From contig VGFP01000002.1 in NCBI GenBank assembly GCA_016868855.1, positions 62,001 through 126,000 of the forward strand: a stretch of DNA of 64,000 bases. Reading direction: 5' to 3'. The position numbers were made by a program, and so were the translations under genes. The notes under the pieces were generated by a model that saw only the letters and a list, made by a program, of their open reading frames with translations, was not told where the DNA came from and searched no databases. The stretch comes from Bacteroidota bacterium. GTDB lineage: Bacteria; Bacteroidota; Bacteroidia; Chitinophagales; Chitinophagaceae. Numbering within the stretch: position 1 is the stretch's first letter; each line of letters opens with the position of its first letter. This document shows positions 11,303-24,500 of this stretch, in pieces.

Positions 11303-11932
11303 ATGCGAATCAACATCATTTATATCTTATTTATTTTTCTGTTGGCTGTTTCCTGCAACAGTGCATTTACGCCCAAGCCGAAGGGGTATTTTAAGATTGA
11401 CTTTCCTCAGAGAGGGTATCAAACCTTCAGTGAACCTGGATTCCCTTACAGTTTTGAGTATCCTGTATATGCAACGGTAACCAAGGAGATAGATTCAAGC
11501 GGACAACAGCCTTATTGGCTGAATATTGAATTCAAAGATTTTGCTGGAAGAATTTACCTGAGTTATAAATCCATCAACGGATATTCCGTATACAAAGTCA
11601 AATCTGGCGATGTTTGCCGGGATTCTTTGGCGAAGAACAGTTTTGAGAGATTGCGGGATGAGGCATTCAGCCTCACATACAAACATACCATCAAGGCTTC
11701 TGGAATCGTTGATTCATTTTTCAATCCCGCGAAAGGATATGCTGGCATGTATTTTTATGTGGAGGGCAATGCAGCAACCTCCAAACAGTTTTTTATCACA
11801 GATTCAGTAAAACATTTTCTGCGGGGAGCGCTTTATTTTGACGCTACTCCTAATCAGGACTCTCTAGGTGTGGTCAGTGAATTTCTGGATGCAGATGTCA
11901 AACACCTGATCAATACGCTCAAATGGAAATAG
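11303..11932 (+). CDS. gldD: Gliding motility lipoprotein GldD
   Basis: Lipoprotein of 209 residues needed for gliding in Flavobacterium. The N-terminus (MRINIIYILFIFLLAVSC) is a lipoprotein signal with Cys at residue 18. The mature protein has the family landmarks PKPKGYFKIDFPQRGY, FEYPVYATV and WLNIEFKDFAGRIYLSYK near residues 25-95. It starts 3 bases after the gldE stop, so the two are co-transcribed. Its 3' end overlaps the convergent argH gene by 14 bases. Cellular role is known only from gliding mutants; the biochemical activity is not established. Confidence 0.93.
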   Translation: MRINIIYILFIFLLAVSCNSAFTPKPKGYFKIDFPQRGYQTFSEPGFPYSFEYPVYATVTKEIDSSGQQPYWLNIEFKDFAGRIYLSYKSINGYSVYKVKSGDVCRDSLAKNSFERLRDEAFSLTYKHTIKASGIVDSFFNPAKGYAGMYFYVEGNAATSKQFFITDSVKHFLRGALYFDATPNQDSLGVVSEFLDADVKHLINTLKWK

Positions 11933-13223
11933 TGGCGGATACGCTTCTCATTTCCCTGATGATTTCATCATTGCAAAGATTTCCGATGCTCCCTTCGTGA
12001 GTGTGTTTCAGTTCTTTTTCCTGGTCAAATTGAAAACTTCCTTCATTTATCATGTTTCCAACTTTCACATAGGCATCGCGGAAGGAGAGTCCCGCGTTTA
12101 CCAGCTCGTTGACCTTTTCAACACTAAAGAGGTATGCGTATTTTTTATCCTTTAAAATATCTTGATTTACGGAGATCTCTTTCAGCATCAGCTGCATCAT
12201 TTGCAAACAGCTTTTGAGCGTTTCAATGGCTGGGAAAATAATTTCCTTGGTCAACTGCATTTCTCTGTGGTAACCCGATGGCAAATTATTGATGAGCAGT
12301 GTCAATTCATTTGGAGTAGACTGTATACGATTACATTTCCCTCTGATCAGTTCAAAAACATCTGGATTCTTTTTGTGCGGCATGATGCTGCTTCCTGTTG
12401 TCAGTTCATCTGGAAAAGAGATGAAGCCGAAATTTTGGTTGACATACAAGCAGCAGTCCATCGCAAGTTTGCCAAGGGTGGATGCCACAGACGATATCGC
12501 ATAAGCAGTGAGCTTCTCTGTTTTCCCTCTGCTCATTTGTGCATATACTGAATTATAATTGAGTGTCTTGAAATGTAAAAGTTCTGTAGTTCTTTTTCTG
12601 TTCAAAGGGAAAGACGAGCCATAGCCGGCGCCACTGCCCAAGGGATTCTTATTGGCAACTTGAAATGCAGCAGATAAAAATTCCATATCATCCACCAGGC
12701 TCTCAGCATATGCAGCCAGCCATAATCCTACTGAAGAGGGCATGGCAATTTGAAGATGTGTATATCCTGGAATCAGATCATTTTTATGTTGATTGCTTTT
12801 TTCAATCAGGAGATCAAAAAGTTTGATGACCTCTTCTTTGATTTCCACGATGGATGAACGCAGGTATAATTTGATATCAAGAGCAACCTGGTCATTTCTG
12901 CTCCTGCCGGTATGGATCATTTTACCAGCTTCTCCTATTTTTTCTGTGAGCATCCATTCAATTTGAGAGTGGATGTCTTCCATGTTCTCTGCAATACTGA
13001 AATCCCCGCTTTTTATTTTTTCATGGATCGATTGAAGTTCCCTGACAGCCTTGTTCACATCTTCCGCTTTCATCAATCCTTGTTCACCCAACATGGTGAC
13101 ATGTGCTATAGAACCCTCCACATCGAATCTTGCAAGCAGGAGATCGAAGTCCCTGTCATTCCCCACAGTAAATCTTTCAATTAGTTCTGATGTGGTAGTA
13201 TTGTCTTTTTTCCAGAGTTTCAT
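11919..13223 (-). CDS. argH: Argininosuccinate lyase
   Basis: Last step of arginine synthesis: splits argininosuccinate into arginine and fumarate. It has 434 residues. The fumarase/aspartase superfamily signature GSSIMPHKKNPDVFE (about residues 275-289) is intact, as are HTGRSRNDQVALDIKLYLR and GYTHLQIAMPSS. It is the final gene of the minus-strand arginine operon, 9 bases after argE, and its 3' end overlaps gldD by 14 bases on the opposite strand. Confidence 0.96.
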   Translation of the reverse strand: MKLWKKDNTTTSELIERFTVGNDRDFDLLLARFDVEGSIAHVTMLGEQGLMKAEDVNKAVRELQSIHEKIKSGDFSIAENMEDIHSQIEWMLTEKIGEAGKMIHTGRSRNDQVALDIKLYLRSSIVEIKEEVIKLFDLLIEKSNQHKNDLIPGYTHLQIAMPSSVGLWLAAYAESLVDDMEFLSAAFQVANKNPLGSGAGYGSSFPLNRKRTTELLHFKTLNYNSVYAQMSRGKTEKLTAYAISSVASTLGKLAMDCCLYVNQNFGFISFPDELTTGSSIMPHKKNPDVFELIRGKCNRIQSTPNELTLLINNLPSGYHREMQLTKEIIFPAIETLKSCLQMMQLMLKEISVNQDILKDKKYAYLFSVEKVNELVNAGLSFRDAYVKVGNMINEGSFQFDQEKELKHTHEGSIGNLCNDEIIREMRSVSATISI

Positions 13224-13232
13224 ATTAGTTGA

Positions 13233-14345
13233 TTATGGGAGATTGAAATGAGCTGCTGTTCTTTCGATCAGTTTGATCAGCAGGTCAATGCCTTGTTCAA
13301 TTTCATATATATAAATATACTCATCTGCAGTGTGACTTCTAGCGGAATCACCCGGACCGATTTTCAGCGCCGGGAAATGCATCAGCGCTTTGTCGCTTGT
13401 AGTCGGAGATCCGTAGTGGTCCAGTCCAAGTTCCTTTCCTGCCAATACAATCGGATGATCCAAGGGGATCAAGGTTGACCTCAATCTGAAACTGCGCGGA
13501 CTGAGTTCGCTGGTTACAATCGATTGCAATTCTTGCATTACCTCATCAAAGGTATACAGCTCATTTACACGGACGTCTACTACAAATCTGCATTGTGCGG
13601 GAATCACATTGTGGGCCTTGTTGTCTGTTTCTATGACGGTGACTTTTGCTGTGGTTTTTCCGGTGAGCTCAGAAAGTTTTTCAAAAAAATGTTGTTGTAT
13701 GGCTTGTATATCTTTCAATGCAATTCCAATCGCATTGGTGCCTTCCTCTCTCGCTGCATGTCCGGCAATTCCCCTTGCCACTCCATCCAATACCAGCAAT
13801 CCTCTTTCTGCAACTGCCATTTGCATCTTGGTGGGTTCGCCGACAAGTGCACCGATGATTGGACTATCTTTTAAATTTGCTTTGAATGTTTGATCGTTGA
13901 GTAACAGTTCAACACCATGCTTTCCAGATATTTCCTCTTCTGCAGTTGCTGCTATGATCAAATTAAACGGCAGATTTTCTGCATCGTAAAAATGTAAAAA
14001 TGTGGCGATCAGTGCGACCAGCGGTCCGCCTGCATCATTGCTGCCGAGTCCGATTATTTTTCCATCCTGCTCAACAGCTGTAAAAGGATCGCTTGTATAA
14101 TCCTTTGCAGGTTTCACCGTATCATGATGTGAATTCAGGAGAATAGATGGTTTGGAAGGATCAAAATATTTGTTCAATGCATACACATTGTGCAAGAGTC
14201 TGTTTACGGGGATCTTTTGTTGGTTGAATGTATTCTCAATCAGATCGGCGACTTCTTTCTCCTCCTTGCTGAAGGAAGGAATAGCTATCATTTTTTTGAG
14301 CAATGTGATCGCGTTCTCTTTGATATGTTGTTCAATTGACATCAT
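13233..14345 (-). CDS. argE: M20-family N-acyl-ornithine/citrulline deacylase (ArgE-like)
   Basis: Zinc amidohydrolase of 370 residues that should remove the acyl group in arginine synthesis. Metal-site motifs are visible: LLNSHHDTVKP, GLGSNDAGGPLVAL and AATAEEEISG, with the dimerisation domain in the middle and a late His in DSARSHTADEY. In this type of pathway the transcarbamylase acts on acylated ornithine, so the enzyme probably hydrolyses N-succinyl- or N-acetyl-citrulline rather than acylornithine. That substrate is inferred from the neighbouring argF'. The gene lies 5 bases after argB and 9 before argH. Confidence 0.9.
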   Translation of the reverse strand: MMSIEQHIKENAITLLKKMIAIPSFSKEEKEVADLIENTFNQQKIPVNRLLHNVYALNKYFDPSKPSILLNSHHDTVKPAKDYTSDPFTAVEQDGKIIGLGSNDAGGPLVALIATFLHFYDAENLPFNLIIAATAEEEISGKHGVELLLNDQTFKANLKDSPIIGALVGEPTKMQMAVAERGLLVLDGVARGIAGHAAREEGTNAIGIALKDIQAIQQHFFEKLSELTGKTTAKVTVIETDNKAHNVIPAQCRFVVDVRVNELYTFDEVMQELQSIVTSELSPRSFRLRSTLIPLDHPIVLAGKELGLDHYGSPTTSDKALMHFPALKIGPGDSARSHTADEYIYIYEIEQGIDLLIKLIERTAAHFNLP

Positions 14346-14350
14346 ACATG

Positions 14351-15130
14351 TTATCTGATGGTTGTTCCGCTCTTGCCTTCAATCAGATTGGCAAGCTCCA
14401 ATGCATCGCCGATGATGACTTTGGAAACGCCTGCTTCTATGGCTGCAAAGGCATTCTCCAGCTTGGGAATCATACCAGCAAAAATAGATTGATCTTCTTT
14501 CATCTGCTTGAACATGGAGGCATCCATTTGGGCAATCACCGAACCCTCGTCGCTCACATCTCTCATGACACCCTTTTTTTCGAATGAATAAATAAGGGAG
14601 GTTGAATAATGGAGAGACATGGCTTTCGCAAGTTCCTGTGCAATGGTATCTGCATTCGTATTCAATAATTGTCCACCTGGATCCTGTGTAATAGGTGCCA
14701 CCACTATACTGATCCCTTGGTAAAGCAAGGCCATCAGTGCTCCGGTATTGACCTGATCTATGTCGCCCACAAATCCAAAATCAACATCAGCGTGTTTTCT
14801 TTTGTGTGCGAGAATGGTTTGCGCATCTGCGCCACTCATTCCCATGGAGATGCAACCTCTGGCATTGAGTTTGGCTACAATATCTTTGTTGATCCATCCA
14901 GCATATACCATGGTTACAATCTTCAAAGTTTCTGCATCCGTAACCCTGCGTCCATCGATCATATGTTGGGGAATCGATAGGGAGGAAGCCAGTTTGGTTG
15001 CCAGTTTCCCTCCACCGTGCACAAGTATTTTTTTTCCTTGTATGCTTGAAAATGCATAGAGGAAGTTGCTTAATTTCTCTGCGTCATCTATGATATTGCC
15101 ACCAACCTTAACAATGTAGAGTGTTTCCAT
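14351..15130 (-). CDS. argB: N-acetyl(succinyl)glutamate kinase
   Basis: Phosphorylates the gamma-carboxyl of N-acylglutamate. It has 259 residues of the amino-acid kinase fold. Visible motifs are VKVGGNIIDD at the N-terminus, LVHGGGKLATKL (nucleotide and substrate loop, about residues 37-48), DGRRVTDAETLKIV, and the C-terminal NTNADTIAQELAKAM. It is 3 bases after argF' and 5 before argE. In Bacteroidota using the succinyl route the same enzyme would take N-succinylglutamate; sequence alone does not settle this. Confidence 0.94.
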   Translation of the reverse strand: METLYIVKVGGNIIDDAEKLSNFLYAFSSIQGKKILVHGGGKLATKLASSLSIPQHMIDGRRVTDAETLKIVTMVYAGWINKDIVAKLNARGCISMGMSGADAQTILAHKRKHADVDFGFVGDIDQVNTGALMALLYQGISIVVAPITQDPGGQLLNTNADTIAQELAKAMSLHYSTSLIYSFEKKGVMRDVSDEGSVIAQMDASMFKQMKEDQSIFAGMIPKLENAFAAIEAGVSKVIIGDALELANLIEGKSGTTIR

Positions 15131-15133
15131 AAG

Positions 15134-16102
15134 TTATGTATTAGTGGCTTTGAGCATTGAGGCGATCACCGACTGTGCCGCCCAAACTCTGTTTGCAGCC
15201 TGTTTGATGACAAGACTGTTTGTGCTGTCCAAAATCTCATCAGAAAGTTCAACATTTCTTCTCACAGGAAGGCAATGCATTGCCTTTGCCTGATTGGTCA
15301 GCTGCATTTTTTTATTGTTAAGCATCCATTCTCCGTCATAGGCAGGCATGGTTCCGTAATCCTGATAGGCACTCCAGTTTTTGATGTATATGAAATCAGC
15401 ATCCTTGATGGCCGCATCCTGATCATGCATGATGGTTGCCCCTTGGGTGAAAGATGGATCCAGTTCATACCCTTTTGGATGGGCAATAACAAAGTCAGCT
15501 GCTCCCCATGCATTGACCCATTGTGCAAAACTGTTCGCTACGCATTGAGGCAGGGGCTTTACATGTGGAGCCCAACTCAGAACTATTTTAGGTTTTGAAG
15601 CTACAGGCTTTTGTGGCATGTTTTCTTGAATGGTGATCAAATCTGCAAGGCTCTGCAATGGATGCAGTGTGGCGCTTTCCAAGCTGATTACAGGAATTCC
15701 TGCATATTTAATAAACTGATGCATGATATGCTCACTGTAATCTGCTTCACGGTCTTTGAGTCCGGGGAAAGTTCTCACTGCAAGCAGGTCAAAATAATTC
15801 CCCATGATAGGAGCGGCATCTTTTACATGTTCAACTGTAGTGCCATTCATGATCGCTCCATCTGCAAATTCAAGTGCCCAACCTTCATTGCCAACATTGA
15901 AAACAACTGTTTCCATTCCCAATTGTTGTGCAGCAACCTGTGTGCTCAAACGTGTCCGCATGCTCGGATTCATGAACAGACAGCCCAGTTTCTTGTGCTT
16001 GCCCAATGTTTCATCTTTCCAGGGACTCGCTTTGTAGTCCAATGCTGATTGTATCAGTGATGGAATGTCTTGAACATCTTGTGCATAAAAGAATTGTTTC
16101 AT
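15134..16102 (-). CDS. argF': N-succinyl/N-acetyl-L-ornithine carbamoyltransferase
   Basis: Transfers a carbamoyl group to an N-acylated ornithine, in place of the usual OTCase. It has 322 residues. The carbamoyl-phosphate loop is SMRTR (residues 47-51), followed by HPLQSLADL and HCLPVRRN, as in the AOTCase/SOTCase branch; FPGLKDREADY also belongs to that branch. Residue 90 (within GTTVEH) is Val. By alignment from memory this is the position that is Pro90 in Bacteroides fragilis SOTCase and Glu92 in Xanthomonas AOTCase, where it decides succinyl against acetyl preference; a non-Glu residue favours the succinyl substrate. It lies 6 bases after argD. Confidence 0.93.
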   Translation of the reverse strand: MKQFFYAQDVQDIPSLIQSALDYKASPWKDETLGKHKKLGCLFMNPSMRTRLSTQVAAQQLGMETVVFNVGNEGWALEFADGAIMNGTTVEHVKDAAPIMGNYFDLLAVRTFPGLKDREADYSEHIMHQFIKYAGIPVISLESATLHPLQSLADLITIQENMPQKPVASKPKIVLSWAPHVKPLPQCVANSFAQWVNAWGAADFVIAHPKGYELDPSFTQGATIMHDQDAAIKDADFIYIKNWSAYQDYGTMPAYDGEWMLNNKKMQLTNQAKAMHCLPVRRNVELSDEILDSTNSLVIKQAANRVWAAQSVIASMLKATNT

Positions 16103-16108
16103 GATGAT

Positions 16109-17251
16109 TTAATCTTGATAATGTTCAATGGCATTTTTCAATTGATGTATAAAGTATGCTGCGTCTTCCATGGTGATTGCCAGTGATGGCAAAAGGCGAA
16201 TCACGTTTGGTTTTGCTTCTCCCGTAAATATTTTGTGTTTGAATAGCATGTGTTTTTTGAGATTTTTCAGGTGTTCGGGTACATCAAAACCAATCATGAG
16301 TCCCCTTCCTCTTACTCCACTGATTGCTTCGATGGATGTTAAAGATGCAGTTAAAAATTCACCCACTTCGCTGGCATGATGAATGAGGTTTTCTTTCTCA
16401 ATGACTTCCAATACGGCAAGGGCTGCAGCACATGCCAGATGGTTGCCGCCGAAGGTAGTTCCCAGCATCCCGTGTTTTGCTTTGAGCTTTGGCGAGATGA
16501 TGATGCCTCCTAAAGGAAATCCATTTCCCATTCCTTTTGCCATGGAGTAGATATCGGCTTCAACGCCTGCAAAATCATGACTGAAAAATTTCCCCGATCT
16601 GCCATAACCACATTGTACGCTGTCTGCGATATAAACGGCTCCATACTGATCGCAGTTTTTTCTGATGGATAACAGAAAATCATTGCTGGCTACATGGATA
16701 CCGCCCACTCCTTGTATACCTTCAACAATTACTGCTGCAATTTCATTTCCATATTGTTTAAATGCATCTTCTAATGCCTGGATATCATTGAAGGGAAGGA
16801 ACATTGCATGTTCGGTTTGGTTGACAGGCGCAACGATGGAAGGGTTATCGGTTACTGCTACTGCCAAAGAAGTTCTTCCGTGAAAAGCCTTGCTGAAGGA
16901 GATGATTTTTTTTCTGCCAGTATGAAAGGATGCCAACTTGAGTGCATTCTCATTGGCTTCAGCGCCTGAGTTGCATAAAAACAGTTGGTAATCTTTTTTT
17001 CCCGAGATCTCACCCAGCTTCTGTGCAAGTTCTTCCTGAATGGGGATTTTGATGGAGTTGGAGTAGAAGGCGATCTTTTTAAGTTGACTTTCAATGCGCT
17101 CTACCCAATACGGGTGGGTATGTCCGATGCTGATGACTGCATGGCCACCGTATAGATCCAAATATTCGTTTTGTTTTTCATCCCATACCCTAGATCCTTT
17201 TGCATGGGTGATTTGAATGTCATTGATTGGATATACGTCGAATAGTTTCAT
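16109..17251 (-). CDS. argD: Acetylornithine/succinylornithine aminotransferase
   Basis: PLP-dependent class III aminotransferase of 380 residues that makes N-acylornithine from the semialdehyde and glutamate. The PLP lysine is in SMAKGMGNGFPLGG, preceded by the cofactor region VQCGYGRSGKFFSHDFAG; LFLCNSGAEANENALKLA binds the cofactor phosphate. It sits 9 bases after argC and 6 before argF' in the arginine operon, which decides the role among class III transaminases. Confidence 0.94.
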   Translation of the reverse strand: MKLFDVYPINDIQITHAKGSRVWDEKQNEYLDLYGGHAVISIGHTHPYWVERIESQLKKIAFYSNSIKIPIQEELAQKLGEISGKKDYQLFLCNSGAEANENALKLASFHTGRKKIISFSKAFHGRTSLAVAVTDNPSIVAPVNQTEHAMFLPFNDIQALEDAFKQYGNEIAAVIVEGIQGVGGIHVASNDFLLSIRKNCDQYGAVYIADSVQCGYGRSGKFFSHDFAGVEADIYSMAKGMGNGFPLGGIIISPKLKAKHGMLGTTFGGNHLACAAALAVLEVIEKENLIHHASEVGEFLTASLTSIEAISGVRGRGLMIGFDVPEHLKNLKKHMLFKHKIFTGEAKPNVIRLLPSLAITMEDAAYFIHQLKNAIEHYQD

Positions 17252-17260
17252 TGCAGTGGA

Positions 17261-18241
17261 TTAAAAAGCGATTGATTTGAGATGAAGGCCAGTTGTCTGA
17301 TCCAATCCAAATACAATATTCATGTTTTGAACAGCTTGTCCGCTTGCACCTTTCAAGAGATTATCAATAGCACTGTGCACGACGAGTTTGTCTCCTTGTT
17401 TTTCAAGAAATATCAGTGCCTTGTTGGTATTCACCACTTGTTTCAGTGAGATCTGTTTATCAGAAACAATGGTAAAGGGATGTTGCTGATAGTATGATTC
17501 ATAAATGGAGTTGGCCTCTTTCACATTCAGTTTGCATGCAAGGGTGGATGAAACGAAGATGCCCCTTGTAAAATCTCCCCGCCATGGCACAAAATTGACT
17601 GATGCCTTTGATGCATTCAGTTGATGCAGCGATTGGTGGATCTCACCCAGGTGTTGATGGATAAGGGTTTTGTAAGCCTGAATATTGTTGGCTCTCCAAG
17701 AAAAATGAGAAGTAGCAGAGAGTGATTGTCCTGCTCCTGTAGATCCGGTGATGCCGGTTGTATAAACTTCCTGTAGCAATCCCTTTTCTGCCAACGGCAA
17801 GAGTCCCAGTTGAATAGCTGTTGCGAAGCAGCCCGGATTGGCAATGTTTTCGGCTGATTGAATTTGTTCAACATTCAATTCAGGGAGTCCATATACAAAT
17901 GTTCTTGTTCCTTGTATTGCATATTCTTTCAGCCTGAAATCATTTGTGAGATCAATGATGTTGATTTGTTTGGGGATATTGTTTTCCTGAAGAAATTTCA
18001 TGGACTCACCATGTCCAAGGCAGAGAAACAGCACATCGATGTCCTGGTTCCATTTATCCGTAAAGCACAATTCAGTAGCGCCTATCAAATCTTCATGAAC
18101 ATGGTATAGTTTATTGCCTGCATTGCTTTTACTGTGTACAAAAGAAATCTCAGCACAAGGATGTCCCATCAAGAGACGTATCAGTTCACCGCCAGTATAA
18201 CCAGCTCCGCCAATGATGCCTGTCCTGATGGTTTTTTTCAT
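17261..18241 (-). CDS. argC: N-acetyl(succinyl)-gamma-glutamyl-phosphate reductase
   Basis: NADPH-dependent reduction of N-acyl-glutamyl phosphate to the semialdehyde. From the preferred ATG at 18241 the protein has 326 residues and starts MKKTIRTGIIGGAGYTGGEL, with the dinucleotide-binding loop at the very N-terminus. The catalytic Cys is in ENIANPGCFATA. The open frame runs 13 codons further upstream, but the preferred ATG overlaps the argG stop as ATGA, a common coupling arrangement. It lies 9 bases before argD. Confidence 0.94.
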   Translation of the reverse strand: MKKTIRTGIIGGAGYTGGELIRLLMGHPCAEISFVHSKSNAGNKLYHVHEDLIGATELCFTDKWNQDIDVLFLCLGHGESMKFLQENNIPKQINIIDLTNDFRLKEYAIQGTRTFVYGLPELNVEQIQSAENIANPGCFATAIQLGLLPLAEKGLLQEVYTTGITGSTGAGQSLSATSHFSWRANNIQAYKTLIHQHLGEIHQSLHQLNASKASVNFVPWRGDFTRGIFVSSTLACKLNVKEANSIYESYYQQHPFTIVSDKQISLKQVVNTNKALIFLEKQGDKLVVHSAIDNLLKGASGQAVQNMNIVFGLDQTTGLHLKSIAF

Positions 18242-19446
18242 GATGACTGTTTTTTGTTTTCCTGTTGAATGGCATTCCAAATGATTGTTTGGTTGCCGAA
18301 TATTTTGCTGAAACCTCTTACATCCTCGCCTTTAAATCCAGCGTTCATTTCACCATATTTTCCAAACTTGCTGTTCATCAAATCATACGGCGATGCTATG
18401 CCGCTGATGTGAAATCTGTAGGGCATTAACTGTACAAATACTTTTCCAGAAACATTTTCTTGTGAATGTTGTAAGAAGGATTCAATGTCGCGCATGACCG
18501 GATCAAGGATTTGACCTTCGTGCAGCCAGTTTCCATAGAACTGTGACAAAGTATCTTTCCATTGCAACTGCCATTTGGTGAGCACATGTTTTTCAAGTGC
18601 ATGGTGTGCTTTCAAAATCACCATTGGTGCTGCCGCTTCAAAACCAACCCTGCCTTTGATTCCAATGATGGTATCTCCAACATGGATATCTCTTCCGATG
18701 GCAAATGGACCAGCAATCTTCTGCAGATATTGGATAGCAGCGGAGGGATGTTGAAATTGTTCAGCGTTGACTGCCATCAATTCACCTTTTTCAAATGTCA
18801 GCACAACTTCTTCTGCATCATGATTTGTGAGCTGGGTCGGCCAAGCAGATTCAGGCAACATTCCTTTTGATGAGAGTGTTTCCTTTCCTCCAACACTTGT
18901 CCCCCAGAGTCCCTTGTTGATAGAGTACATGGTTTTTTCTGTGTTCATCTCAACTCCTTTTTTCTGTAGGTAGTTGATTTCTTCTTCACGGCTTAGTTTC
19001 AAGTCACGTATCGGTGTGATGATTTCAACGCCTGGTATCATGATATGAAAAACCATGTCGAATCGAACTTGATCATTCCCCGCACCGGTACTGCCGTGTG
19101 CCACGGCATTTGCTTCTAATTTTTGAACATGCTCTGCAATGTGAATGGCCTGACTGAGTCTTTCTGCGCTCACACTCAGGGGATAGGTATTGTTTTTCAA
19201 TACATTTCCGAAAATCAAATATTTGATGATGCGGTCATAGTACGATTCAACAGCATTGACTGTGGTATGGGTAGCTACTCCCAGATGATATGCGTGTGCT
19301 TCAATGTTTTTCAGTTCTTCCTCACTGAATCCGCCGGTATTCACAATGATGCTGTGTACCTCATATCCTTTTTCTTCAGAAAGGTATTTTACACAAAATG
19401 TTGTGTCCAACCCTCCGCTGAATCCAAGTACAATTTTCTTTGACAT
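18238..19446 (-). CDS. argG: Argininosuccinate synthase
   Basis: ATP-dependent joining of citrulline and aspartate. The protein has 402 residues. The PP-loop SGGLDT is at residues 10-15; AHGSTGAGNDQVRFD and MYSINKGLWG are the citrulline/aspartate-binding parts. It is the second gene of the arginine operon, 10 bases after the GNAT gene, and its stop overlaps the argC ATG (ATGA), so translation is probably coupled. Confidence 0.96.
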   Translation of the reverse strand: MSKKIVLGFSGGLDTTFCVKYLSEEKGYEVHSIIVNTGGFSEEELKNIEAHAYHLGVATHTTVNAVESYYDRIIKYLIFGNVLKNNTYPLSVSAERLSQAIHIAEHVQKLEANAVAHGSTGAGNDQVRFDMVFHIMIPGVEIITPIRDLKLSREEEINYLQKKGVEMNTEKTMYSINKGLWGTSVGGKETLSSKGMLPESAWPTQLTNHDAEEVVLTFEKGELMAVNAEQFQHPSAAIQYLQKIAGPFAIGRDIHVGDTIIGIKGRVGFEAAAPMVILKAHHALEKHVLTKWQLQWKDTLSQFYGNWLHEGQILDPVMRDIESFLQHSQENVSGKVFVQLMPYRFHISGIASPYDLMNSKFGKYGEMNAGFKGEDVRGFSKIFGNQTIIWNAIQQENKKQSS

Positions 19447-19456
19447 GGTCTTTTGA

Positions 19457-20158
19457 TTATAAGTTCAGTAATGAGAGCAGTACACCTACAATTGATTTGC
19501 TGTTGCTGTCTTTTTTGGTGAATGCTCTCAGAAAATTCAATTGTTTGAAGCTGAACAACCTCTCAAATCCTTTTTTATTCTCTTCGAAATATTTGGTTGT
19601 TTCCTCCGTCGTATAATGATCTTTTGGATCATATAGCATGGCAGTGCACATGCAATTTTTTCTTTCCTTGCTCATCAGGATTTCATAGTTGACACAACTT
19701 TTGCATCCAGCCCAAAAATCTTCATCCTGTGTGAGTTCTGAATAAGTGACTGGTTCGTAACCCAGTTCAGAATTGATTTTCATTACAGCCAGCCCCGTAG
19801 TGAGTCCGAATATTTTCGCATGCGGGTAAGTTGTTCTGCTCAGTTCAAAAATTTTCTTTTTGATCAACTTGGCGAGTCCTCCTTTTCTAAAATCGGGATG
19901 AACTATCAACCCTGAATTTGCAACATATTCTCCGTGGCTCCAGGTTTCAATATAACAGAAGCCAGCCCATATTCCCTCTGCGGTGGTAGCAATCACTGCT
20001 TTGCCCTCGCTCATTTTTTTCATCACGTATTCGGGACTCCTTTTGGCGATGCCTGTTCCGCGGGCTTTTGCAGATTCCGCCATTTCTTTGCAGATGGCAT
20101 CTGCAAATTTGAAATCTGTTTCACTCGCGATGTATATATTGAAAGATGTTGGTTCCAT
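19457..20158 (-). CDS. GNAT-family N-acyltransferase, first gene of the arginine operon
   Basis: Protein of 233 residues with a GNAT domain at about residues 10-165; the acyl-CoA-binding motif is VHPDFRKGGLAKLIKKK (about residues 87-103). A C-terminal extension holds two cysteine pairs, CKSC and CMC. The operon otherwise has every enzyme from N-acylglutamate to arginine but no recognisable ArgA or ArgJ, so this is the best local candidate for the acyl-CoA:glutamate N-acyltransferase. That role is inference from position. The fold is clear; the acyl donor and acceptor are not. It starts 97 bases after a putative leader peptide. Confidence 0.85.
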   Translation of the reverse strand: MEPTSFNIYIASETDFKFADAICKEMAESAKARGTGIAKRSPEYVMKKMSEGKAVIATTAEGIWAGFCYIETWSHGEYVANSGLIVHPDFRKGGLAKLIKKKIFELSRTTYPHAKIFGLTTGLAVMKINSELGYEPVTYSELTQDEDFWAGCKSCVNYEILMSKERKNCMCTAMLYDPKDHYTTEETTKYFEENKKGFERLFSFKQLNFLRAFTKKDSNSKSIVGVLLSLLNL

Positions 20159-20255
20159 TTTGAAAGGGTGTATTGAAATGAATGAATCTTGTATCCAGAT
20201 CTTGTTGATCTTGGATGCAGCTTATCGAATCAATCGGTGCTGAAAGTGGTGAGTA

Positions 20256-20384
20256 TCAACGTCGTACCAAAAATGGAATTGGTCGGCGTAAAAAAACTGT
20301 TGCGCAAGGCACAGTAAAAACCCAACGCGTGGAAGCGGTGTGAGCCGTTTCTGCTATTGTTGAAAGGGTTAGGTTTTTTTTCAT
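20256..20384 (-). CDS. Putative arginine-operon leader peptide (42 aa)
   Basis: A 42-codon frame between the candidate promoter and the first arginine-operon gene. It starts MKKNLTLSTIAETAHTASTR and ends LRRPIPFLVRR, so four of its last ten codons are Arg (CGC CGA ... CGA CGT). Five Arg codons in total and a position 97 bases before the operon suggest a leader peptide that senses Arg-tRNA. The upstream region is A-rich without a Shine-Dalgarno, as usual in this phylum. A hairpin plus T-tract lies inside the frame. The region also has an open frame on the other strand, so chance cannot be excluded. Confidence 0.4.
   Translation of the reverse strand: MKKNLTLSTIAETAHTASTRWVFTVPCATVFLRRPIPFLVRR
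20290..20315 (-). terminator. Terminator-like hairpin in the arginine-operon leader
   Basis: Read on the minus strand, ACTGTGC and GCAACAGT pair (one bulged A) around a short loop at 20296-20315 and are followed directly by seven T (20290-20296, sharing one stem base). This is the shape of an intrinsic terminator. It lies within the putative leader ORF, just before its first Arg-Arg pair, and upstream of the GNAT start. It could be an attenuator. The other strand has no T-tract, so any termination would be for the arginine operon only. Confidence 0.45.
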
Positions 20385-20422
20385 TTTTCTTTGTCTGATT
20401 TTTCGGCAAAAATTGTTCAATG

Positions 20423-20456
20423 CAAATAAACAGATTTTTCCTGAAAATGCCCTCAA
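20423..20456 (-). promoter_or_regulatory. Candidate arginine-operon promoter
   Basis: On the minus strand TTG (20456-20454), 23 bases of spacer, then TTTATTTG (20430-20423), which fits TAnnTTTG with one mismatch. The predicted start would fall about 35-40 bases before the leader-peptide ATG. Weak to moderate on its own. Confidence 0.35.
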
Positions 20457-20478
20457 TATGTCTGAATACTTTCTGTGA

Positions 20479-21243
20479 TCAGTGAGGATTTGCGAGGGTT
20501 GAACCGGAGTGAACTGCTTCAGCCATTTCTCGGATAAGGCGGGCATCTTTTTCAATGGCATTTCCAACCACAATGATGTCGGCACCTGCTTTGCAGTTTT
20601 TGTAAGCTTTTTCAGGATCTGTGATACCACCTCCAATAATCAGAGGAATGTTGATATGGGAGGATACAGCTTGTATCATGGATTCTTTGATGGCAACTTT
20701 TGCTCCACTACCTGCATCCATGTATAGCAGTTTGAGTCCCAGCATCTCACCAGCGAGTGCCGTGCAGAGAGCAATTTCATTTTTGTCACTTGGTATCGGA
20801 CTGGCATTGCTGATATAAGAGACAGTGGTGGGTGCACCACCATCGATCAACATGTAACCTGTGGGGATCACTTCGAGTCCGCTTTTTCTGACAGCAGGTG
20901 CAGATATCACATGTTGTCCGATGAGCAGTTCTGGATTTCTGCCTGATATCAAAGAGAGGTAAAGTAGTGCATCTGCATAAGGTGTGATTTGCGAGGGACT
21001 GCCGGGAAACAGCAGCACCGGAATATCACATGAAGATTTGATGTGTTGCACAAGATCTTCAAGATGGTCACTGACCACCAGGCTTCCCCCAACGAATATA
21101 AAATCAACATGTGCCTTGGTGCAAAGAGAGATCAGTTCATCTGCTTTTTTCAAAGATGTTTTATCTGGATCAACAAGAACTGTGAATGCTTTCTTGTTGT
21201 TGCGCTTCAGATCAATCATTTTATCATAGGTCAGTCTTGGCAT
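20479..21243 (-). CDS. Geranylgeranylglyceryl phosphate synthase-family protein
   Basis: TIM-barrel prenyltransferase family (GGGPS/PcrB) that joins a polyprenyl diphosphate to glycerol-1-phosphate, the first ether-lipid step. It has 254 residues. Visible motifs are FTVLVDPDKT (strand 1, about residues 20-29), FIFVGGSLV, LLFPGSPSQI, EVIPTGYMLIDGG, LLYMDAGSGA and the phosphate-binding end LIIGGGI...GADIIVVGNAIE. Group II bacterial members are known from Bacteroidota, including Chitinophaga. Chain length of the prenyl donor cannot be read here. It is transcribed in the same direction as the arginine operon but is separated from it by 320 bases. Confidence 0.92.
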   Translation of the reverse strand: MPRLTYDKMIDLKRNNKKAFTVLVDPDKTSLKKADELISLCTKAHVDFIFVGGSLVVSDHLEDLVQHIKSSCDIPVLLFPGSPSQITPYADALLYLSLISGRNPELLIGQHVISAPAVRKSGLEVIPTGYMLIDGGAPTTVSYISNASPIPSDKNEIALCTALAGEMLGLKLLYMDAGSGAKVAIKESMIQAVSSHINIPLIIGGGITDPEKAYKNCKAGADIIVVGNAIEKDARLIREMAEAVHSGSTLANPH

Positions 21244-21481
21244 GCAGTATGCACTTCTATTGCAAATGTGCGAAAAAGTTTCCTTGAAACATCAAACAAG
21301 TTGGGAATATTGGAATTAAATCATGTTGGTCATTTTGCCAAGCTTTCCCCCATCATTTTCTGGTCTATTTATTTTTCCTTATTTGGCCAAAAAATTTTTT
21401 ACCAAAAAAGTGAAAAAAATAGGAAAATCAATCCCCTTGCGGGTTGTTGCAGTTATCAACAGGGTGTTGATATTTAGACGT

Positions 21482-21511
21482 TTGAAAAGCGAGGCAGCAG
21501 GGATATTTTCG
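21482..21511 (+). promoter_or_regulatory. Candidate nrdJ promoter
   Basis: TTTG (21481-21484), 19 bases of spacer, then TATTTTCG (21504-21511), one mismatch from TAnnTTTG. This ends 48 bases before the nrdJ ATG. The rest of the 316-base gap after the GGGPS start is A/T-rich; I see no cobalamin-riboswitch B12 box or other element in it. Confidence 0.45.
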
Positions 21512-21559
21512 TAAACTCACTAAACTGAACAATTTTTAAAAAATTACATATCCATCAAC

Positions 21560-24500
21560 ATGCCCAACAAGACCAAAACTAAAAACCCAGGACTGGCCTT
21601 TGAGAGACAATTCACCAGCGACAAGGTCAACGTATTTGAAATGTTTGAATATGATTACAGAACATCGGTAATCAGAAATCCAAGTGGTGAAGTAGTTTTT
21701 GAAATGACCAATGTGGAGGTTCCCAAACAGTGGAGCCAAATTGCAACTGATATTCTTGCTCAAAAATATTTTCGCAAAGCAGGTGTTCCGCAGGCGGATG
21801 GCACCTTGGGTAGAGAGACATCTGCCAAACAGGTGGCACATAGAATGGCCAATTGCTGGAGAGTATGGGGCGAGCGTTATGGCTATTTTGCTTCCACCGA
21901 AGATGCACAGGTGTTTTATGAAGAGTTGGTGTATTGTATTTTGAATCAGGCATGTGTTCCTAATTCACCACAATGGTTCAATACTGGTTTGCATGAGAGC
22001 TATGGCATCAAAGGAAAACCACAGGGCCATTATTATGTTGATCAGAACGATGGACAATTAAAAAAATCTACTTCTGCATATGAGCGTCCACAGCCACACG
22101 CATGTTTCATCCTCAGTGTGGATGATGATTTGGTGAATGAGGGTGGCATCATGGATTTATGGGTACGTGAAGCAAGAATTTTCAAATATGGATCTGGTGT
22201 TGGAACCAATTTTTCCAACCTCCGCGGTGAAGGCGAAAAATTGAGTGGTGGCGGTACATCATCTGGATTGATGAGCTTCCTGAAAATCGGTGACCGTGCA
22301 GCGGGTGCCATCAAGAGCGGTGGTACAACCCGTCGTGCTGCCAAGATGGTTTGTCTCGATTTGGATCATCCCGAAATTGAAACTTTCATCGATTGGAAAG
22401 TAGAAGAGGAAAAGAAAGTGGCCGCATTGATTGCAGCCGGATATGCAAGCGACTACGAGGGAGAAGCTTACCGCACCGTGAGTGGACAAAACTCCAACAA
22501 CTCTGTTCGTATACCCAATGAGTTTTTTGAAAAACTTGCAAAGGGTGAGGATTGGGAGCTGACTGGAAGAATGTATGGAAAGGTGATGAAAAAAGTTTCT
22601 GCCAAGGCATTGTGGGATAAAATTTCTTATGCAGCATGGCGTTGCGCAGATCCTGGAACACAATACGACACTACCATCAACGAATGGCATACTTGTCCGA
22701 AGGGTGGTAGAATCAGGGCCTCCAATCCATGCAGTGAATACATGTTCCTCGACAATACTGCGTGTAATCTCGCGTCAGCCAACCTCAGAAAATTCTTCAA
22801 TGAAAGCGATAACAGCTTTGATGTAAAAGGATTTGAATATACTGTCAGACTTTGGACAACTGTATTGGAGATTTCTGTGTTGATGGCACAGTTTCCGAGC
22901 AAAGAAGTTGCACAGCTCAGTTACGATTACCGCACACTCGGACTCGGTTATGCCAATCTGGGAAGTATGTTGATGGTGAGTGGTATTCCTTATGACAGTG
23001 ACGAAGCAAGGGGAATTGCAGGTGCCATCACAGCGATCATGACCGGTATTTCATACAAGACATCTGCAGAGATCGCAGGTATCTTGGGTGCTTTCCCTCG
23101 TTACGAGGAAAACCGCGAAGACATGATGCGCGTAATGAGAAATCACCGTGCGGCTGCATATGATGCTGAACAGGCCTATGTTGGATTGAGCATCAAGCCA
23201 CAAGGCATCATGGCAAAAGATTGTCCGGATTATTTGTTGAACGCAGCATGCAAAGCCTGGGATGATGCAGTAGAGTATGGAGAGAAGTATGGATACAGAA
23301 ACGCACAGACAACCGTCATTGCACCCACCGGAACCATTGGATTGGTAATGGATTGTGATACTACAGGTGTTGAACCAGATTTCGCGTTGGTGAAATTCAA
23401 AAAACTTTCCGGTGGAGGATATTTCAAGATCATCAATCAGTCTGTTCCACAGGCATTGGCCAACTTGAAATATTCAGAGGCGGAACAGGATTCCATCATC
23501 AAGTATGCGGTGGGTGCCGCAAGCTTTGCAGGCGCACCTTTTATCAATCACCAGACATTGAGTGAAAAAGGATTTATTGCAGAAGAGATCAAGAAGTTGG
23601 ACGATGCGGTGATGTCGGCATTTGAAGTTGGTTTTGTATTCAATGTGTATACACTTGGAGAAGAATGTCTGCAGCGTCTGGGTTTCAAACCAGAGCAGTA
23701 TTTCAACTTTGACTGGAGCTTGTTGAAGGCACTAGGATTCACAGGAGCAGAGATCGATGCAGCGAATGATTATGTATGTGGAACCATGACCATTGAGGGT
23801 GCACCGCATTTGAAAGAAGAGCATTATCCAGTGTTTGATTGTGCTAATAAGTGTGGCAAGAAGGGAGAGCGTTATATTCATCCGCATGGCCATATCCGCA
23901 TGATGGCAGCTACACAGCCTTTCATCAGTGGAGCGATTTCAAAAACCATCAATCTTCCGAACGAAGCCAATATCAATGAGATTGCAGATTGTTATCATTT
24001 GAGTTGGGAACTTGGATTGAAAGCGTGTGCATTGTACCGTGATGGATCTAAACTCAGTCAGCCGCTCAGCAACAAAAGCGACAGCAAGGCTGATGAAGAT
24101 GCCAGTGCAGAATCAACCGACAGTCAGTTTATTGATGTAGGAAAGCTTACAGTGGATGAGTTGTTGGATGAATTGCAAAAAAGAATGCAGGCTTCACCAG
24201 ATACAAAATTGAAGCGCCAGCTTTCAAGAATTGTTGAACGCAAATCACTTCCAACAAAGAGAAGAGGCTTTACCCAAAAAGCAAGAATCAACGGACAAAC
24301 CATTTTCTTGCGCACAGGAGAATACAGCGACAATACCCTCGGTGAAATCTTCATTGACCTCGCCAAAGAAGGGTCAACCTTGCGCAGTTTGATGAACTGT
24401 TTTGCGATTTCAGTATCAGTTGGTTTGCAATACGGCGTTCCTTTGGAGGAATTTGTGGAGAAGTTCGTTTTCACCAAGTTCGAACCAGCAGGAATGGTGG

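Follow-up and report, generated by a model that had tools for sequence, protein, structure and literature searches.

A leader frame ending in arginine codons precedes the arginine operon of ArgR-less Chitinophagaceae and probably acts as an arginine sensor

The window, as we call the whole 64,000-nucleotide stretch of DNA analyzed here, carries an arginine operon of eight genes on the minus strand, extending from 20158 down to 11919 (Table 1). Several of the gene names are taken from best matches that fell below curated cut-offs. The first gene encodes a GNAT-like protein, which may be the N-acyl-glutamate synthase of the arginine pathway. It is preceded by a 320-base gap, upstream of which lies a GGGP synthase gene ending at 20479. 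The gap houses a 42-codon frame with the translation MKKNLTLSTIAETAHTASTRWVFTVPCATVFLRRPIPFLVRR, and its stop codon is separated from the GNAT start by 97 bases. An earlier note on this DNA had described such a frame with four Arg among its last ten codons ahead of the arginine operon, and both the frame and the Arg count were confirmed.

Table 1. Positions of the leader, its associated elements and the arginine operon in the window
Feature	Position	Strand	Remarks
Candidate -7 element TTTATTTG of the leader promoter	20423..20430	minus	about 40 bases before the ATG; retained in close relatives L231-L234
Leader ORF, 42 codons	20384..20256	minus	ATG at 20384, stop 20258-20256; ends in FLRRPIPFLVRR and the stop
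Hairpin inside leader ORF, CTGT-GCCTTGCGCA-ACAG	20314-20297	minus	putative terminator or RNA polymerase pause hairpin
T7 run after the ORF hairpin	20296-20290	minus	directly before CGC CGA (20288-20283)
Upstream Arg pair CGC CGA of the RRPIP motif	20283..20288	minus	conserved less than the terminal pair
Terminal Arg pair CGA CGT, proposed sensor codons	20259..20264	minus	CGA first in 28/29 class A pairs, background 7%
97-base spacer, more C than G	20159..20255	minus	possible Rho loading region
Spacer hairpin GCATCCAAGATC/GATCTGGATAC	20191..20218	minus	no T-run; similar stem in L231-L234
GNAT-like gene, first gene of the operon	19457..20158	minus	Pfam acetyltransferase matches under cut-off; no NCBIfam family
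argG	18238..19446	minus	best matches argininosuccinate synthase models, under their curated cut-offs
argC	17261..18235	minus	over cut-off
argD	16109..17251	minus	best match acetylornithine/succinylornithine transaminase family, under cut-off
N-acylornithine carbamoyltransferase	15134..16102	minus	N-acetylornithine carbamoyltransferase model, score at its cut-off
argB	14351..15130	minus	over cut-off
argE-like deacylase	13233..14345	minus	ArgE/DapE family, under cut-off
argH	11919..13223	minus	over cut-off

A hairpin followed by seven T, which the earlier note had placed inside the frame just before the first Arg-Arg pair, is present at 20314-20290. The hairpin itself, without the T-run, stops 38 bases short of the stop codon and lies upstream of the terminal Arg pair. 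Upstream of the ATG, the candidate -7 element can be set beside the TAnnTTTG element of Bacteroidota promoters (PMC9723704). The pattern GTRCGACGTTGATA, with one mismatch allowed, has a single occurrence in the window's own genome. The leader matched no Pfam family at E values up to 0.01, a weak test for so short a peptide, and membership in the orf34/SpeFL family PF10940 was not found. An Rfam scan of positions 19000-22000 of the window returned only three matches, all far below gathering scores, with no T-box among them.

We compared the upstream regions of relatives, a check proposed in the earlier note, and found the start, the frame, the Arg codons and the hairpin conserved. The GNAT protein was searched in 147 genomes of the family and matched in 123. 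Upstream regions were examined at 110 loci (30 given and 80 fetched); the matches in the remaining 13 genomes were weaker, truncated or at an edge and stayed outside the count. To pass the strict test, a stop-to-stop frame had to span 18 codons or more, contain three or more Arg among its last 12 residues and an Arg-Arg among its last six, and end 55-170 bases before GNAT. Such a frame was found in 88 of the 110 regions in the sense direction, as opposed to 1 of 110 in antisense and a mean of 1.9 (maximum 6) in shuffled sequences. Thus, the leader frame is not a product of chance.

By a looser motif rule, which had no control of its own, 103 of the 110 loci fell into three classes. Class A, to which the window belongs, comprises 29 loci with endings like RPIPxxVRR; class B comprises 39 loci ending like RPRRGC or RPRRRPEC; and class C comprises 35 loci, mostly ending in RRPRI. 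All three have Arg at or near the C-terminus. Three further loci (L022, L027 and L040) were placed in class B by visual inspection, and L096 is similar to L097 of class A; no leader was seen at L030, L066 and L073. In a set of 80 loci taken from genome contigs, a rule asking for Arg-Arg among the last seven residues picked 75, including a few doubtful ones (L294, L297, L298 and L308 look spurious by eye), and the pair began with CGA in 72 of these 75. Four loci (L257, L260, L305 and L309) gave no Arg-Arg pick.

Nearly the same leader is found in the four closest relatives, whose GNAT proteins are 86-90% identical to that of the window. These are metagenome genomes labeled Bacteroidota bacterium, Parafilimonas sp., Chitinophagaceae bacterium and Chitinophagales bacterium. 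Relatives keep the start, the stop and the Arg pair of the leader, and the gaps in the class A alignment of the ORF are multiples of three. The window frame stays open further upstream, from a TTG, and the conserved start in class A is the ATG. The alignments took in 24 of the 29 class A, 36 of the 39 class B (34 for the model) and 28 of the 35 class C loci. On the strength of these comparisons we firmly claim the leader as the rule in this family. The earlier note called arginine attenuation by a leader peptide unusual, which may be true of arginine generally but is not true of this family. By eye, the leader at L281 is lengthened by repeats of a YGRPAPxANDF-like unit ahead of the terminal Arg pair, and L259 and L282 carry related extensions.

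ArgR is the protein repressor of arg genes. A search for its domain (PF01316) was negative in all 147 family genomes and in the window's own genome (0/1; 87% complete), and the same search was positive in 9 of 14 control genomes. Together with the 88 strict frames, this supports the proposal of an Arg-codon leader ahead of an arginine operon in a lineage with no ArgR found. In the class as a whole, PF01316 matched 14 of 247 genomes, 11 of them over the cut-off. Six class genomes have a strong ArgR match together with a GNAT match, and in each the ArgR match lies, by position, directly upstream of GNAT. At these six loci a frame of 160-202 codons, the size of argR, occupies the leader's place, and a strict Arg leader was found in 0 of 6. 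Another genome (G308), with a marginal ArgR match that reached the cut-off only with its neighbors and lay on a contig other than that of GNAT, was counted as ArgR-less. Leader and repressor belong to the same pathway, with argR standing at the leader's place in these six genomes and ArgR not found in the family. The leader ending in Arg codons is probably the arginine sensor of the ArgR-less relatives.

The first codon of the Arg pair is almost always CGA: in 28 of 29 pairs in class A, 32 of 35 in class B and 35 of 35 in class C, or 95 of 99 in total. In class C the second codon of the pair is CGA as well (35 of 35). As background, CGA makes up 6.1% of 570 Arg codons in the stretches adjoining GNAT and 5.7% of 141 in ten window genes. 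The tRNA-Arg genes found in the window's own genome (87% complete) have the anticodons ACG, CCG and TCT, of which ACG and CCG read CGN codons. In a model of E. coli, decoding of CGA by the ACG anticodon is about two orders of magnitude slower than the next rate (PMC3783181). Codon rarity need not matter, however, since the Arg pair in the leader of Salmonella speF was recoded to frequent codons and arginine control was retained (PMC6386406).

The ORF hairpin of the window is weak when folded alone (-5.7 kcal/mol, z -0.23), and 73 of 200 shuffles fold as well. Single-sequence hairpins at L019 (z -0.04) and L362 (z -0.77) were likewise not stabler than shuffles. Given this weak stability, the window hairpin is credible by virtue of its conservation in class A. 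In the 24 aligned class A loci, 93% of cells are paired, with 14 double-change cells as opposed to 4.5 in shuffles, a value reached in 0 of 500; the number of pairs with double changes (3) was equaled by 37 of 500 shuffles. T-runs are present in the class A alignment. A terminator-like match occurs in the ORF end at 24 of 29 class A, 6 of 39 class B and 9 of 35 class C loci (4.2, 1.7 and 2.5, respectively, in shuffles).

Class B has a different hairpin. Its stem, CUGAYAGG...CCURUCAG, spans the leader stop codon in 36 of 36 sequences used and is accompanied by an inner stem. Of its cells, 98% are paired, with 32 double-change cells as opposed to 11.8 in shuffles; seven of the eight outer pairs are invariant, and pairs with double changes are no more numerous than in shuffles (3 vs 2.9). 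No consensus structure was found in class C. After the class A stop there was no convincing one, and a CATAG/CTATG stem was seen by eye in part of the class only.

One mark of ribosome-mediated attenuation is present: the control codons specify the amino acid of the pathway, with an Arg pair before the arginine operon and Pro codons before proC (described below). Another, a set of alternative RNA structures in which an intrinsic terminator follows those codons, was not found, and the conserved terminator-like hairpin of class A precedes the Arg pair. Intrinsic terminators after the Arg codons were not conserved, occurring in a minority of loci, although above shuffles, in all classes (7 of 29 in A, 2 of 39 in B and 8 of 35 in C; shuffles 1.9, 0.8 and 1.7). 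The spacer between the leader stop and GNAT has a mean C-G of 0.080 in class A, 0.095 in class B and 0.067 in class C, as opposed to 0.016 in 24 other upstream regions, all of them from the window. In the closest relatives, CGATTGATTCGATA and the spacer hairpin are conserved after the leader stop (window 20191-20245). In many class B spacers, e.g., that of L019, a second motif like GGAYUGGUNAUCC is found about 25-45 bases before the GNAT start.

We evaluated selection on the peptide in codons -28 to -9 of all 103 leaders, using pairs with at least 60% DNA identity and the two wrong frames as controls; the pairs are not independent. In class B, pN was 0.126 and pS 0.755, with pN below pS in 86 of 87 pairs as opposed to 3 of 84 and 4 of 67 in the wrong frames. 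In class C, pN was 0.274 and pS 0.474, with pN below pS in 62 of 70 pairs (22 of 58 and 25 of 80 in the wrong frames), and the N-terminal half of these leaders is variable. Class A displayed no frame-specific selection in the middle of the ORF (pN/pS 0.279/0.357 in frame vs 0.283/0.350 and 0.292/0.337 out of frame), in a stretch that is also constrained by the RNA hairpin. By this measure, translation and a role for the peptide appear well supported in class B and moderately supported in class C. For class A, translation is argued from an ATG that is conserved, a frame that stays open because its gaps are multiples of three, and an Arg pair and stop codon that are fixed. A previous version of the test covered 27 of 29 class A, 13 of 39 class B (through the choice of an N-terminal motif) and 33 of 35 class C leaders and admitted only pairs with pN below 0.35. 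It gave pN/pS of 0.252/0.394, 0.126/0.672 and 0.276/0.533, respectively, and was dropped as biased; the claim of peptide-level selection in class A was withdrawn after the all-leader test with wrong-frame controls.

Models of the class A leader (R1) and the class B leader (R2) matched 26 and 43 of the 147 family genomes, respectively, each time as a single copy at GNAT, apart from one exception. Both models derive from these same loci and strict filters were applied, so that the informative part of the result is the absence of further copies. The exception is an extra copy in one genome (G134) before proC (TIGR00112, over cut-off), with the leader at L311:1509-1607. This leader ends in CPPPGC, encoded by CCG CCA CCC GGG TGC TGA, where an arginine example reads CCG CGA CGT GGA TGC TGA. 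Among 20 genomes of that genus, four (G134, G392, G395 and G399; the further loci are L346, L348 and L364) carry a Pro-coded leader with the same stop-codon hairpin ahead of proC. Three of the four leaders end in CPPPGC and one in SPAPGC, and the downstream proteins in G392, G395 and G399 are ProC-like by their first 60 residues. The Pro-coded version retains the hairpin and the G-C-stop and little of the remaining peptide. Since the hairpin is kept while the codons change with the pathway, the codons appear to do the sensing and the hairpin to belong to the actuator, and we regard this as the best evidence available. Three other extra pattern matches were dropped for want of a leader frame: a palindromic one in G029 (L338) and third-type matches in G395 and G399 (L352 and L363).

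The leader before the arginine operon is, in our judgment, quite likely a ribosome-mediated attenuator sensing charged arginyl-tRNA. The leader frame, its codons, its placement and the codon swap rest on comparison of sequences; translation, stalling and the direction of control are what we infer. The operon transcript would start with the short ORF, whose slow CGA-CGN Arg pair is found near its stop. A shortage of charged tRNA-Arg would make the ribosome halt on the Arg pair, and the operon would stay on. With ample charged tRNA-Arg, the ribosome would finish and leave at the stop, and the operon would be shut off downstream. For the final step, the possibility that we favor, suggested by base composition, is advanced only tentatively and is somewhat more apt to fail than to hold: the released ribosome would expose the C-rich, G-poor spacer of about 100 bases to Rho, with termination before GNAT. 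A stalled ribosome would shield the spacer from Rho and, in class B, would also prevent the stop-codon hairpin. The ORF hairpin and T-run of class A would act earlier, either by pausing RNA polymerase until the ribosome has caught up or by terminating transcripts whose leader is not translated.

The earlier note had assigned control differently, with stalling at the terminal Arg codons deciding the T7 hairpin. This part was not supported, as the hairpin and T-run are transcribed before those codons; judging from this order, a ribosome at CGC CGA or CGA CGT would come too late for the T7 terminator. The only Arg codon that could act on the T7 hairpin is the CGT at codon 20, ahead of it, and several class A leaders lack this codon. 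Classical attenuation, with the T7 hairpin as a regulated terminator whose formation is decided by Arg codons, could draw on the terminator-like hairpin, which covaries and is found at the ORF end in 24 of 29 class A loci, and on the Arg codon ahead of it in most leaders of the class. Yet the conserved Arg pair lies downstream of the hairpin, the upstream Arg is absent from several leaders (e.g., L043, L051, L071 and L099), and terminator-like matches in the ORF are fewer in classes B and C, which makes this reading quite improbable to us.

We also consider it unlikely that the leader is an arrest peptide, i.e., that free arginine, rather than a lack of charged tRNA, is sensed by the nascent chain within the ribosome tunnel, bringing translation to a halt near the stop codon. 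TnaC, SpeFL and the fungal AAP are arrest peptides of comparable manner. The strong frame-specific constraint on the class B peptide upstream of the Arg region and the position of Arg at or near the C-terminus in all classes would agree with such a device. However, class A has no frame-specific constraint, class C is variable in its N-terminal half, and the little that the proC version keeps of the peptide beyond the G-C-stop fits codon sensing. The peptide-level selection in classes B and C could also reflect a functional small protein, and the plus strand has a 42-codon frame at 20215 that might be an antisense gene, in either case with no relation to arginine control. The modeled leaders are single copy before GNAT, the proC case apart, and the plus-strand frame was provisionally set aside as a candidate gene because only one antisense region in 110 passed the strict Arg test; we hold this reading to be very improbable.

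Attenuation of amino acid operons, trp and others, by leader peptides has been modeled previously (PMC1183508). Like the trp-type attenuators treated there, the present leader is a short ORF that lies between the promoter and the first gene, carries codons for the operon's own amino acid product and has a codon choice suggesting selection for sensitivity. Unlike them, it precedes an arginine pathway, its control codons lie at the stop or a few codons before it, no conserved intrinsic terminator follows, and in class A a leader hairpin with a T-run comes ahead of the control codons. In Salmonella, two consecutive Arg codons in the short leader ORF orf34 (SpeFL) of speF likewise serve as an arginine sensor, and Rho and a hairpin downstream of the orf34 stop take part in control (PMC6386406). 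The target of orf34 is an ornithine decarboxylase, its Arg codons come early (codons 12 and 13), and it differs in these respects from the window leader, which has no Pfam match. Thus, speF provides a working precedent, although for another gene, for the combination of Arg codons, Rho and a post-stop hairpin. The leader peptide rbfL of Staphylococcus aureus also senses arginine limitation through rare Arg codons at its end, but it has eight residues and blocks the ribosome binding site of a biofilm regulator, which is lowered under starvation (PMC13009471).

Within the same phylum, "strong clues" of leader-peptide attenuation before amino acid biosynthesis operons were reported for Flavobacterium psychrophilum in PMC9723704, where we noted no arginine leader, and leader-peptide attenuation in Bacteroidota also appears in PMC7366714. 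Our search of the open-licence literature, supplements aside, turned up no Bacteroidota arginine operon described as having an arginine leader peptide. Leader-peptide attenuation itself is already known. A broader proposal, to which we give slightly less than an even chance, is that in ArgR-less Bacteroidia a leader peptide takes the arginine repressor's place. Class B would be a portable stop-codon-hairpin cassette that owes its amino acid specificity to a handful of codons just ahead of the stop, which one genus has recoded from Arg (GNAT-argG) to Pro (proC), and its actuator would be unlike the trp type, with no conserved intrinsic terminator after the control codons. The leader offers an answer to how arginine synthesis may be controlled in a large bacterial group mostly without a detected ArgR, and it puts arginine forward as an amino acid that its own biosynthetic operon would sense through a leader peptide. 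The natural swap of Arg for Pro codons makes the sensing codons directly testable, and the near-fixed CGA ties the system to theories of isoacceptor charging and of slow inosine-A decoding.

Beyond the family, the leader is likely, though not proven, to occur in much of the class. Among class loci outside the family, 35 of 72 passed the strict rule, in 18 families, as opposed to 2 in antisense and a shuffled mean of 2.2; the rule applied here allows Arg-Arg within the last nine residues, as opposed to six in the family test. A loose class-level rule was rejected: it scored 49 of 72 loci, 24 of 72 in antisense and a mean of 16 in shuffles, and 3 of the 6 ArgR loci scored as well. A class-wide search with R1 gave no clear match beyond the family; a single match in one other genome (E 0.055) was taken as chance. 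Arg codons other than CGA, AGG among them, are frequent outside the family. By eye, leaders missed by R1 in other families (L117, L131 and L175) carry a hairpin, e.g., CTATTCC..GGAATAG, followed by T5 at the class A position.
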